A stretch of 43,768 nt of DNA, taken from the NCBI GenBank assembly GCA_021820465.1, contig JAKADP010000010.1:2723-46490 (forward strand). Direction: 5' to 3'. Numbering within the stretch: the first letter of the stretch is position 1; every line of letters starts with the position of its first letter. Position numbers and translations under genes: made by a program. Below are positions 5,535 through 10,795 of the stretch, one piece after another. The notes under the pieces are model-generated. The model did not search any database. It worked only from the letters and a program-made list of their open reading frames with translations, and was not told where the DNA came from. The DNA comes from Bacillota bacterium (GTDB taxonomy: Bacteria > Bacillota > Sulfobacillia > Sulfobacillales > JAIMBI01).

Positions 5535-6359
5535 ATGCTTTCATTCATCACAACGATGACGTGGTCCCAATGGCTTTTGTCCGTGGTGGACATCGGCATC
5601 GTCAGCTACGGGTTTTACCGCCTGTTTCGCTTAATCCGGGGCACCCGCGCGGTGCAGCTCATCAAGGGCATCGTGATCATCCTGCTGGCAGTGCCGGTGT
5701 CGCAGTTTCTGCACCTCTATGCCACTCATGAGATTTTGGCAGCCATTCAAACGATGCTCATCGTGGCCATCCCCATTGTGTTTCAGCCGGAACTGCGGCG
5801 GGCGCTGGAGCAGATTGGGCACGGCCGCTTCTTTTCTGAGCCGCTCTTGGGCCACGAGCCGGTGGACATGGCCCAGGTGATTGACGAGGTGGCGCGGGCG
5901 GCGGATCACCTGGCGAAGAGCCGCACCGGCGCCCTCATGGTGCTGGAGCGGCAGACGGGGCTCAACGAGTACGTGGCCACCGGCGTGCCCATCGAAGCCA
6001 AAGTGTCGGCGGCCCTGCTGGAGAACCTGTTTGTCCCCAACACGCCGCTGCACGATGGCGCCGTGATTATTCGGGGCGACCGGCTGGTGGCGGCGGCGGC
6101 GTTTTTGCCCCTCACCGATGCGGCCCGGCCTGGGAGCGAGCTGGGGAGTCGGCACCGGGCCGCGCTGGGCGTGAGTGAGCAGTCGGACGCGGCGGTGGTC
6201 GTGGTGTCCGAGGAAACCGGCTGGATCTCGCTGGCGGTGGAGGGCAAGCTGAACCGGCGACTGGAGGATCGGACGCTGCGTGAGATGCTGGCCCGGCTGT
6301 ATCGGGCGCGCGCCCCCTACAATGGGTTCAAGCTGTTCACGCGGGGGAGCGCGCGATGA
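5535..6359 (+). CDS. cdaA: Membrane diadenylate cyclase CdaA (c-di-AMP synthase)
   Basis: N-terminal TM segments, LHDGAVIIRGDRLVAAAAFLPLTD and GSRHRAALGVSEQSDAAVVVVSEETG (DisA_N DGA and RHR motifs); upstream of cdaR-glmM. Confidence 0.95.
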   Translation: MLSFITTMTWSQWLLSVVDIGIVSYGFYRLFRLIRGTRAVQLIKGIVIILLAVPVSQFLHLYATHEILAAIQTMLIVAIPIVFQPELRRALEQIGHGRFFSEPLLGHEPVDMAQVIDEVARAADHLAKSRTGALMVLERQTGLNEYVATGVPIEAKVSAALLENLFVPNTPLHDGAVIIRGDRLVAAAAFLPLTDAARPGSELGSRHRAALGVSEQSDAAVVVVSEETGWISLAVEGKLNRRLEDRTLREMLARLYRARAPYNGFKLFTRGSAR

Positions 6360-7267
6360 CCGATCGGCTCCTGGAGAACGATACGGCGCTCAAAATTCTC
6401 TCGGTGCTGATCGCCATCGCCATTTGGGTGCAGGTGAACAGCGGCGTGCCTCGGCAGGTGGACCGCCGGCTGGGGCCGGTGCCGGTGACCTGGCTGGCCG
6501 CCACCCATCACTACACGGTGCTGGGGATGCACCCGGGGTCGGTGACGATTCTCATCAAAGGATCGCCCACCACGGTGACGCAATCCATTCATGCAGAGGC
6601 GTGGGTGGACCTCTCCCACATCAGCAAGCCTGGCACCTATTCGCTGCCCGTCAGCGCGTCGGTGCCTCCCGGCACGAGCTTGGTCTCCGTCACGCCCCCT
6701 GACGTGACGGTCACGGTGGACAGCATCACGGCCAAAAAATTCAGCATTACCGCGGTGCCCGTGGGCCACGTGGCGAGCGGGTACGGCATCGTCGCCATGA
6801 CGCCGGTGAGCACGGCCGTGGAGGTGTCGGGCCCGTCGCATGACGTGGCCGCGGTGGCGCATGTGGACGCCCGAGTCAACGTGAGCGGGCAAAGTAGCAA
6901 TCTGGACGCTCAGGTGGCGCTCGTCGCGGTCAATGCGGGGGGCCACGTGGTGCCCCAGGTGACGGTCAGCCCGAGCCTCATGGATGTCGCGGTGACGGTG
7001 TCGCCGGAGAAAGTGCTGCCAGTGGTGGTGAAGTATCACGGGACGCCCAGCCCTGGCTTCGTGGTGGGGTCCATCTCCGTGTCCCCCAGTCACGTGACCG
7101 TGTTTGGGCCTGCAGCCACCCTGTCGGGGATGACCGCCGTGGACACCAATCCGGTGACCATCTCGGGCCGGACCACCTCGGTCTCCAAGCGCGTCCACCT
7201 CGCCCTGCCTTCAGGCGTCACCGCGTCGCCGGCGACGGTCGCGGCCACCGTATCCATCGGGCCGTAG
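6356..7267 (+). CDS. cdaR: YbbR-domain protein CdaR
   Basis: Single N-terminal TM (LKILSVLIAIAIWVQV) plus repeated YbbR-like beta segments; ATGA overlap with cdaA; conserved cdaA-cdaR-glmM order. Confidence 0.9.
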   Translation: MTDRLLENDTALKILSVLIAIAIWVQVNSGVPRQVDRRLGPVPVTWLAATHHYTVLGMHPGSVTILIKGSPTTVTQSIHAEAWVDLSHISKPGTYSLPVSASVPPGTSLVSVTPPDVTVTVDSITAKKFSITAVPVGHVASGYGIVAMTPVSTAVEVSGPSHDVAAVAHVDARVNVSGQSSNLDAQVALVAVNAGGHVVPQVTVSPSLMDVAVTVSPEKVLPVVVKYHGTPSPGFVVGSISVSPSHVTVFGPAATLSGMTAVDTNPVTISGRTTSVSKRVHLALPSGVTASPATVAATVSIGP

Positions 7268-7360
7268 GCCGCAGGAGGCGGCGCCGCGGCCATGCGGGCA
7301 TACGAATAGGTGGCGGGCATGCGGGATGGAGGAGCCAGCACAGCAGGCGGGGGGAAGTCA

Positions 7361-8734
7361 GTGGCATTATTCGGAACAGATGGGGCACGGGGTCAGGCGC
7401 CCCGGGAACTGACCCCGACGTTGGCGCTGGCCGTGGGCGCGGCGGCCGTGGCCGAGCTGTCAGGGGCGCCGCGGGTGCTGGTGGGGCGGGACACGCGGGT
7501 GTCCGGTCCCATGCTGGAGGCGGCGGTGGTGGCGGGCATTACGGCCGCGGGCGGCCGGGCTGCCCTCTTGGGCGTGGTGCCCACCCCGGCGGTGGCGGCA
7601 TTGGTGCCGCTCTTGGGTGCTGACGCCGGTCTCGTGATCTCCGCCAGCCACAACCCCCCGGAGTACAACGGGTTGAAGTTGCTGGACTCTCAAGGGCGCA
7701 AGTGGACTTCCGCGCGGGAAGCCGCGGTCGCGGAGCGGGTGGCCGGGTCCGAGGTGCCATGGGCGGCATGGAACCAGGTGGGCGGGGTCGAATCTTGCGC
7801 CGACCGCGTCGGGGAATATCGGGATCGCCTGGTGGCGGCATTTGCCGGCCGAGTGGGCCATCCGCACGTGGTGGTGGACCTGGGATTTGGTGCGGCGCTG
7901 ACCACCGTGCCGGCCGTGTTGGAAGCACTGGGCTTGGTGGTGACCGTGCTAAACGGCGCCGCCGACGGCACACGCATCAATCAGGGGGTGGGAGCCACCC
8001 ATCCGGAGGTGGTGGCCCAAGCGGTCCGCGAGCTTGGGGCCGACATTGGCTTTTCCTTCGATGGCGATGCGGACCGGGTGATGGCGTGCGATGCGGACGG
8101 CCACGTCATTAACGGAGACGGCATCATTTACCTGCTGGCGCGCGGCCTCAAGGACACGGGCGGCCTCCCCGGGGGCGAGGTGGTGGGAACCGTCATGGCC
8201 AACCTGGGGCTGGAGCGGGCGTTGGGGGCGGTCGGCATTCACCTGCACCGCACCCCGGTGGGCGACCGCTGGGTCGCTCAGGCGATGGCGGAGCGGGCAG
8301 CGCCGCTGGGCGGCGAGCAATCGGGCCATGTTATTTTGTCCCAGTGGGCCGTGACCGGCGATGGGCTGCTGACCGCGCTGGCGGTCCTGGCCGAGATGCA
8401 CCGGGTTGGGGGGCCTGCATCCGCATTAGTCGCCGCGATGCCGCACTACCCCCAGCGGCTCGAGAACGTGCGCCTGCCGGCCATCGGGTTTGCCTGGGAG
8501 CATCTGGCCGGTGTCGACGCGGCGTTTAGTGCCTGCACCGCCGCGCTGGGCGGAGATGGCCGTCTGCTGGTGCGGGCTTCCGGAACCGAGCCCCTCTTGC
8601 GTATCATGATAGAGGGGAGGGATGCGGCGGTCGTAGAAGAATGGGCCGACCGGCTGACCGCGGTCGTTCGAGAGGCGCTGGCGTCGGGACCAGCGCGGTC
8701 GAACTCTGAGCCCCAAGCGCCGGAGCCCAGATAA
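7361..8734 (+). CDS. glmM: Phosphoglucosamine mutase
   Basis: (GTG)ALFGTDGARGQ...; VISASHNPPEYNGLKLL phosphoserine loop; FSFDGDADRVMACD metal loop; RASGTEPLLRIMIEG. GTG at 7361 preceded by GGGGGGAAG. Confidence 0.95.
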   Translation: MALFGTDGARGQAPRELTPTLALAVGAAAVAELSGAPRVLVGRDTRVSGPMLEAAVVAGITAAGGRAALLGVVPTPAVAALVPLLGADAGLVISASHNPPEYNGLKLLDSQGRKWTSAREAAVAERVAGSEVPWAAWNQVGGVESCADRVGEYRDRLVAAFAGRVGHPHVVVDLGFGAALTTVPAVLEALGLVVTVLNGAADGTRINQGVGATHPEVVAQAVRELGADIGFSFDGDADRVMACDADGHVINGDGIIYLLARGLKDTGGLPGGEVVGTVMANLGLERALGAVGIHLHRTPVGDRWVAQAMAERAAPLGGEQSGHVILSQWAVTGDGLLTALAVLAEMHRVGGPASALVAAMPHYPQRLENVRLPAIGFAWEHLAGVDAAFSACTAALGGDGRLLVRASGTEPLLRIMIEGRDAAVVEEWADRLTAVVREALASGPARSNSEPQAPEPR

Positions 8735-8850
8735 CTGGGCTGACGAGGAGAGGGATCTCGAAGCATTCGGCGGGTGACCTCCGGCTTCTCGGCGGCCGAT
8801 AGCCACGGGACAAAGGGTCGACAGCAATGTCGCCACAAAACCCGTGAGGC
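8716..8850 (+). ncRNA. glmS ribozyme: glmS glucosamine-6-phosphate-activated ribozyme
   Basis: Reads A|GCGCCGGAGCCCAG-ATAA-CTGGGCTGACGAGGAGAGGGATCTCGAAGCATTCGGCGGGTGACCTCCGGC...CACGGGACAAAGGGTCGACAGCAATGTCGCCACAAAACCCGTG. Recalled glmS-ribozyme signatures are present in order: A/GCGCC cleavage site, TGACGAGG, TCGGCGGGTG, P3, and a P4 (CACGGG/CCCGTG) enclosing a GCAA-capped P4.1 hairpin. Located directly upstream of glmS. Confidence 0.93.
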
Positions 8851-8891
8851 CGAGCCCGACGACGTGTCATAAGGGTCTCCTGTGTCAGGCA

Positions 8892-8910
8892 GCCCTGCCC
8901 CAGGCAGGGC
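8892..8910 (+). other. GC hairpin in the glmS 5' leader
   Basis: GCCCTGCC-CCA-GGCAGGGC, 8-bp stem between the ribozyme and glmS; no U-tract. Confidence 0.4.
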
Positions 8911-8977
8911 GGCTGGTGGGTCGGTGCGCCAATGGCCGGCGCCCCCAGACGACGAGTCGGGGAAAGGACGGATGGCC

Positions 8978-10795
8978 GTGTGTGGAATTGTGGGGTATGT
9001 GGGCCGCGACGCGGCGTTGCCGTTTTTGCTGGAGGGCCTGTCAGCCCTCGAGTATCGGGGCTATGACTCGGCCGGCGTCGCGCTGGTGGACGCGGCCGGC
9101 ATCGCGCACGTGAAGCGAGCAGGCCGCCTGGAGAGCCTCATTGGGGTGGTCGACAGCCTGCCGGGAGCGGCGCAGTGCGGGATTGGGCACACACGGTGGG
9201 CGACCCACGGGCCGCCCACTGACGTGAATGCGCATCCCCACACCGATTGCCACGGGCGGGTGGCGGCGGTGCACAACGGCATCATCGAAAACTATCAGGT
9301 GCTAAAGCGCCGGCTTCAGGACAGCGGGCACCGGTTTGTGAGCGACACGGACTCGGAGGTCATCCCTCATCTGCTGGAGCACCACTACCACGGAAATCTA
9401 TGGGACGCGGTGGCAGCCACGGCGCACGACCTGGAGGGCGCGTACGCGTTTTTGGCTGTCGCCGCGGATGACCCCATGACGCTCGTCGCCGTGCGCGAAG
9501 CCAGTCCGCTGGTGATTGGGCTGTCCGAGCACGGCACCTACGTCGCCTCGGACTTGACGGCGCTCGTGCCCTACACGCGCCGCGCGCTGGTGCTGGACAA
9601 CGGCGAGATGGCCGTGATTCGGGCGGACGCGGTGGAACTGCGGGACATGGCGGGCGCGCCGGTCGTGCGGGAGCCGTTTGCGATTGATTGGGATCGGGAG
9701 CAAGCCTCCCGCGGTGGGCACCCCCACTTCATGCGGAAGGAGATTCACGAGCAGCCCGACGTGTGGCGCGCGACGATGGCCGGGCGACTGGGCGGCGACG
9801 GCCACGTGGTGCTGGACCAGGTGGGCCTCACGCCGGACGACTTGGCCAGCGTGAAGCAGGTCCGCCTGGTGGCAGCCGGCAGTGCGTATCACGCGGGGCT
9901 GGTGGCCGCCCATCTGCTCGAGCGCGTGGCCGGCATCCCGGCCGCCGTCGAAGTGGCCTCCGAGTTTCGGTATCGGGATGCGGCCATCCCCCCGGGCACG
10001 GTGGTGTGGGCGATTTCTCAGTCGGGCGAGACGCTGGACACCCTGGCCGCGGTGGAGGTGTCGCAGCGGCGGGGGCTTCCGGTGTGGGCCGTCACCAACG
10101 TGGTGGGCTCGACGCTGGCGCGCCAAGCTGACCGGGTGGCCCTAAACCGCGCAGGCCCTGAGGTGTCGGTCTGCTCGACCAAGGTGTATACCAGCCAAAT
10201 CGTGCTGCTGACGCTGTGGACGCTAGCCCTAGCCGCAGCGCGTGGCCGGGCCCGTCCAGACCTGGCGGCTGCACTTGAAGCCCTGCCGGCCGCCGGGGCG
10301 GCGTGGCTCGAGGCGCCCGCGGGCCTCGACGGCATCGCTGCGCGGCTGGCGCAAGCGCCCAGCGTTTTTTACGTCGGGCGCGGGCAGGACTATCTGTCGG
10401 CGCTGGAGGGGCAGCTGAAGTTCAAGGAGATTACGTACATCCACGCCGAAGCTTATCCCGCTGGCGAGCTGAAGCACGGCACCTTGGCCCTCATCGAGCA
10501 GGATGTGCCCGTGGTGGCGGTGGTGTCCAACTCAGCCCTGGTGGCCAAGACCCGCTCCAACATCATGGAGGTGCGGGCGCGCGGGGGCTTCGTGGTGGGC
10601 ATCGTGGCAGACGAGCTGGCCGACGGGCTGGCCGACGTCATGCATCACATGGTGCCCGTCCCCACGCTGGCGCCCGACGTCATGCCCATTCTCATGGCGC
10701 TGCCCATGCAGCTGCTGGCCTACGAGACGGCAAGGCACTTAGGCGTGGACATCGACAAGCCGCGCAACCTGGCCAAAAGCGTCACGGTGGAATAG
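8978..10795 (+). CDS. glmS: Glutamine--fructose-6-phosphate aminotransferase (isomerizing)
   Basis: CGIVGYVGRDAALPFLLEGLSALEYRGYDSAG; GHTRWATHGPPTDVNAHPH; SIS domains (SQSGETLDTL); C-terminal DIDKPRNLAKSVTVE. GTG at 8978 puts the nucleophile Cys at position 2 and is 9 nt after AGGA; ATG at 8972 is the alternative. Confidence 0.96.
   Translation: MCGIVGYVGRDAALPFLLEGLSALEYRGYDSAGVALVDAAGIAHVKRAGRLESLIGVVDSLPGAAQCGIGHTRWATHGPPTDVNAHPHTDCHGRVAAVHNGIIENYQVLKRRLQDSGHRFVSDTDSEVIPHLLEHHYHGNLWDAVAATAHDLEGAYAFLAVAADDPMTLVAVREASPLVIGLSEHGTYVASDLTALVPYTRRALVLDNGEMAVIRADAVELRDMAGAPVVREPFAIDWDREQASRGGHPHFMRKEIHEQPDVWRATMAGRLGGDGHVVLDQVGLTPDDLASVKQVRLVAAGSAYHAGLVAAHLLERVAGIPAAVEVASEFRYRDAAIPPGTVVWAISQSGETLDTLAAVEVSQRRGLPVWAVTNVVGSTLARQADRVALNRAGPEVSVCSTKVYTSQIVLLTLWTLALAAARGRARPDLAAALEALPAAGAAWLEAPAGLDGIAARLAQAPSVFYVGRGQDYLSALEGQLKFKEITYIHAEAYPAGELKHGTLALIEQDVPVVAVVSNSALVAKTRSNIMEVRARGGFVVGIVADELADGLADVMHHMVPVPTLAPDVMPILMALPMQLLAYETARHLGVDIDKPRNLAKSVTVE

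Follow-up and report, generated by a model that had tools for sequence, protein, structure and literature searches.

The DNA analysed here (the 'window', a stretch of 43,768 nucleotides from a member of the Bacillota) contains a gene cluster in which Pfam and NCBIfam models place the diadenylate cyclase gene cdaA, cdaR, glmM, a glmS ribozyme and glmS in that order. The protein-coding features of the cluster are as follows.

5535 to 6359, plus strand: cdaA, diadenylate cyclase (Pfam DAC, 143 bits)
6356 to 7267, plus strand: cdaR (Pfam YbbR, 102 bits), its start overlapping the end of cdaA by 4 nt
7310 to 8734, plus strand: glmM, the longest open reading frame from 7310, ending within the ribozyme (TIGR01455, 455.8 bits; stop read directly)
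8978 to 10795, plus strand: glmS, with a GTG start (MCGIVGYVG...; TIGR01135, 715.9 bits)

The NCBIfam scores of glmM and glmS both exceed their curated cut-offs, and the conserved portion of glmM, to which Pfam assigns PGM_PMM domains, begins near 7364. No second glmM or glmS was found above those cut-offs in the window's genome (a draft of 165 contigs, in which one glmS ribozyme was located), which argues that the copy of glmM in the window is probably the essential one. A search for terminator-like sites yielded none between glmM and glmS (its only two matches, at chance level, both fell within glmS), and nothing between 5300 and 11000 matched a sigma-70-type promoter, a weak test in GC-rich DNA; transcripts of glmM therefore probably carry the ribozyme. 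Elsewhere in the genome the genes for tmRNA (Rfam, 137 bits; tag reading ANDNGSELALAA) and SmpB (206 bits) adjoin one another. ARAGORN reported no tmRNA in L195, but Rfam does find one there, with a legible tag.

The end of glmM within the ribozyme

The earlier note on this DNA, made from its letters, held that a glmS ribozyme extends into the glmM coding sequence, with its cleavage site immediately behind a CAA codon and the last five codons and stop of glmM inside the RNA. A covariance model search bore out this anatomy, returning a significant match to the full length of RF00234 (model positions 1-167; E 1.3e-13; 67.8 bits, with the gathering score at 37), from which, together with the sequence, the following elements were placed.

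8705 to 8857, plus strand: glmS ribozyme (RF00234, 67.8 bits)
8716 to 8717, plus strand: predicted self-cleavage point between A and G, right behind the glmM codon CAA (conserved A/GCGCC in the RF00234 alignment, the slash marking the cut)
8717 to 8731, plus strand: five glmM sense codons (APEPR) within the ribozyme (sequence)
8724 to 8741, plus strand: P1 hairpin AGCCCAG-AUAA-CUGGGCU (RF00234 alignment; compensatory changes relative to relatives)
8732 to 8734, plus strand: glmM stop codon UAA, in the P1 loop (sequence)
8741 to 8743, plus strand: next in-frame stop TGA, at offset +24, within the conserved UGACGAGG (survey; a TGA at the same offset is the glmM stop in genome G005)

The A/GCGCC of the window was aligned to the conserved AAGCGCC of the model, and both that motif and the conserved core (GACGAGG ... 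UCGGCGG) are present. The glmM codons run CAA (8714-8716) and then GCG CCG GAG CCC AGA (8717-8731), so that the reading frame occupies the first 18 nt of the ribozyme behind the cut. On the DNA, the P1 hairpin, which is placed directly 3' of the cleavage strand, comprises AGCCCAG (8724-8730), a loop ATAA (8731-8734) and CTGGGCT (8735-8741); an A-U to G-C change between the window and G002 is compensatory within the genus, and several more such changes separate the window from sister genera. The glmM frame is open without interruption up to 8734, contrary to any earlier end of the gene, and since CAA is the last complete codon ahead of 8717 and no in-frame stop precedes it, the predicted cut would leave none on the upstream fragment.

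The ribozyme is not a chance match: of the 42 genomes in the order, 33 carry the same element in the gap separating glmM from glmS. In the remaining nine, some of them nearly complete, an RF00234 match is absent, which suggests either loss or strong divergence. At 8840-8850, in the 3' strand of P3, the window reads CCC where other family members have CC, and the additional base may lengthen that helix by one pair. Downstream, the glmS start lies 261 nt from G1 (the base that follows the cut); the corresponding stretch measures 261-320 nt in the window's genus versus 164-215 nt elsewhere in the order, and the extra spacer (8857-8977 in the window) contains strong hairpins with little sequence conservation.

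Distribution of glmM stop positions

Positions of the ribozyme and of the glmM terminus were mapped in 51 genomes, counting that of the window, and across a sample of the phylum that took in low-scoring cases too. With a glmM end within about 300 nt upstream as the criterion, 165 glmM-linked ribozymes were collected (152 plus 13 added), a survey that is skewed toward high-scoring ribozymes. A complete glmM stop precedes the cut in 162 of these and is missing from that position in three, with the first base of the stop at +15 relative to G1 in the window, at +24 in G005 and at -2 in G006, where the cut splits the codon (TA/G). All three belong to the window's family of seven species, in which they represent three genera and separate tips of the glmM tree, and in all three the catalytic core is unchanged. 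The window and G006 both have sisters that lack the overlap, which is also not found in the window's three closest relatives. In two further family members (G001 and G003) the gene ends in a TAA at -3, flush with the cut (TTAA/GCGCC), and in the remaining two the stop is at -17. Most relatives in the order have their stop near -19; in the broad phylum sample the median is -105 and the maximum -10. The excess in the family (3/7 versus 0/145, Fisher p 6e-5, a statistic that ignores relatedness) could also reflect selection.

Several further candidates were rejected. Overlaps suggested by tblastn proved spurious, as the alignments extended through genuine stops, and apparent overlaps at L051, L209, L219, L224, L227, L228 and L180 were not counted, since they appear to be spurious frames or misplaced motifs in GC-rich DNA. 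Relatives of the start of the ribozyme were sought in viral contigs, where none were found.

Movement of the stop codon

Measured from the codons for the conserved GlmM motif WAxRL, G1 lies at a distance of 66-76 nt in the order (33 genomes) and of 74-75 nt in each of the seven family members, whereas stop positions vary between -22 and +24. The near-constancy of that distance indicates that the stop moved and the ribozyme stayed in place. Where sister species read GAGCCTTAA/GCGCC, the window reads GAGCCCCAA/GCGCC, with CCAA at the cut. G003 already possesses an additional in-frame TGA in the P1 loop, and with in-frame stops present there and at +24, the loss of a TAA shifts termination into the ribozyme. 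Among random 40-nt linkers of the family's composition, 68% contain no in-frame stop, a figure that is a sufficient neutral account of the overlap. In another family (f3), none of 25 sampled members overlaps, though composition would leave 55% of linkers stop-less; this absence, uncorrected for relatedness, may hint that an overlap is usually costly and selected against, and thus not neutral.

The arrangement is probably best explained by a stop codon that drifted through a short, GC-rich linker, with stops inside a genuine glmS ribozyme then catching the reading frame. The glmM gene of the window would have lost its own stop by mutation, leaving CAA where its sisters have TAA, and translation would now terminate in the P1 loop, which holds the next stop in frame. 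The overlap is accordingly real, rare, recurrent in one family and not conserved; a regulatory mechanism is possible, and a purpose for it is unsupported.

Potential consequences for GlmM expression

Under stop-codon drift, two fates of the message may be envisaged. Uncut mRNA would yield normal GlmM carrying a short C-terminal extension. A ribosome terminating at 8732-8734 would briefly hide the cleavage strand and P1. Cleavage triggered by GlcN6P would instead leave an upstream mRNA that ends exactly at CAA, a zero-overhang substrate for rescue; ribosomes still on the cut glmM would halt at its end, their A site empty, and rescue by tmRNA and SmpB would tag GlmM for degradation. In B. subtilis, a point mutation in the ribozyme raised glmS mRNA more than 50-fold (PMC6171935), an effect which suggests that most wild-type transcripts there are cut. 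If the same holds here, much of the glmM mRNA would be nonstop, which would come at a price for GlmM, an essential enzyme in other organisms. GlmM may be affected physiologically, though probably to a modest degree.

It is quite conceivable, if somewhat short of an even chance, that the overlap leaves GlmM unaffected, either because cleavage mostly follows glmM translation or because glmS is expressed mainly from a shorter transcript. The ribozyme, at 153 nt, would be expected to fold only once fully transcribed, and the lead ribosome may already be past by then; later ribosomes, however, would meet cut mRNA, and the failure to find a terminator-like site or promoter match argues against a predominant shorter transcript.

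A less likely proposal is that translation of glmM gates the ribozyme, with ribosomes at the P1-loop stop shielding the site such that heavy translation of glmM protects glmS mRNA. A terminating ribosome reaches about 12-15 nt downstream, and with the stop at +15 it would occupy approximately 8717-8747, a span that takes in both the cleavage strand and P1, and would exclude folding of the ribozyme (and vice versa). At ordinary rates of initiation and termination, however, the site is estimated to be mostly free, and in most relatives of the order a stop near -19 keeps terminating ribosomes off the site, and the architecture is not conserved. The fuller scheme, in which a single GlcN6P-triggered cut shuts down both enzymes (GlmS through decay of its mRNA, GlmM through trans-translation) while ribosomes translating glmM protect the site, is improbable.

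The earlier note had further proposed that GlcN6P could thereby tune both the enzyme that makes it and GlmM. As an evolved dual control, cleavage would generate nonstop glmM mRNA and tmRNA-tagged GlmM that is degraded, GlmS and GlmM would both be lowered, and CdaA might be released from inhibition by GlmM. The predicted cut at an exact codon boundary with no overhang, the presence of tmRNA and SmpB genes and the recurrence of the overlap in three genera of one family are consistent with that view, and one genome of another family (G426, described below) has reached a second ribozyme between cdaR and glmM by another route. GlmM is reported to inhibit CdaA in B. subtilis (PMC8573169), so that, as speculation, less GlmM could raise c-di-AMP. 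Against this, the overlap is missing from the three nearest species and differs in position in every case, GlmM would be reduced at a time of surplus substrate, which makes for poor feedback, and two ribozymes occur in only one of the 20 genomes of G426's family. An evolved tuning of GlmM thus appears still more doubtful: the overlap occurs in 3 of 165 cases, and the loss of a TAA that lies flush with the cut in sister species accounts for it. What stands of the earlier proposal is the predicted nonstop cdaA-cdaR-glmM mRNA, which follows from the anatomy in a genome that encodes tmRNA and SmpB.

An error of sequencing or assembly that removed the glmM stop is very improbable even in a draft of 165 contigs, given that it would require two adjacent substitutions (TT to CC) relative to the sister species in a region of ordinary divergence and that two independent genomes also display overlaps.

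Relationship to known systems

The glmS ribozyme-riboswitch was reportedly described by Winkler et al. in 2004 in the gap between glmM and glmS of B. subtilis. The element in the window belongs to the same RNA family (RF00234), occupies the same location and shares the conserved core, and differs in that its 5' end and cleavage site lie inside the glmM reading frame. In E. coli, nonstop mRNA of arfA arises through RNase III or through termination within the coding sequence, and its expression is controlled by tmRNA (PMC8012679). In both systems an RNA hairpin is the place where a stop codon is removed, producing a substrate for trans-translation (in the window, a predicted one); the cut in the window, however, would be made by a metabolite-dependent ribozyme, and the arrangement is known here from sequence and is not conserved. 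In M. tuberculosis, a B12 riboswitch is reported to interplay with an upstream open reading frame (PMC11260477). There, ribosomes translating that frame interact with a ligand-sensing RNA within one leader, as is proposed for the window; by contrast, the frame ahead of the ribozyme in the window encodes an entire enzyme, and the RNA is of a self-cleaving kind.

Among the open-access papers searched, none names the glmS ribozyme together with 'nonstop', and the fate of the upstream glmM mRNA after cleavage seems to have been little studied. The value of the overlap, a variant of a known element, therefore lies mainly in its use as a natural test case: the family offers a series of stops on either side of a single conserved cut (at -17, at -3 flush, at -2 split, at +15 and at +24), which could reveal directly whether nonstop substrates can arise from a self-cleaving riboswitch and whether folding of the ribozyme competes with translation.

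Duplicated glmS ribozymes

In G426, a genome from another family of the phylum, two near-alike glmS ribozymes (L248, 2941-3094 and 4598-4751) lie before glmM and before glmS in a cdaA-cdaR-glmM-glmS operon. The upstream copy sits between cdaR and glmM and aligns as a clear duplicate of the other, and the pair apparently arose by local duplication; to judge from this layout, glmM should be directly under GlcN6P control. To our knowledge, a glmM behind its own duplicated glmS ribozyme has not been described. The case illustrates that a ribozyme of this kind can become positioned to act on glmM; an adaptive overlap in the window does not follow from it. Five further genomes (G084, G274, G374, G409 and G431) have two RF00234 matches on separate contigs, several of them beside separate copies of glmS.
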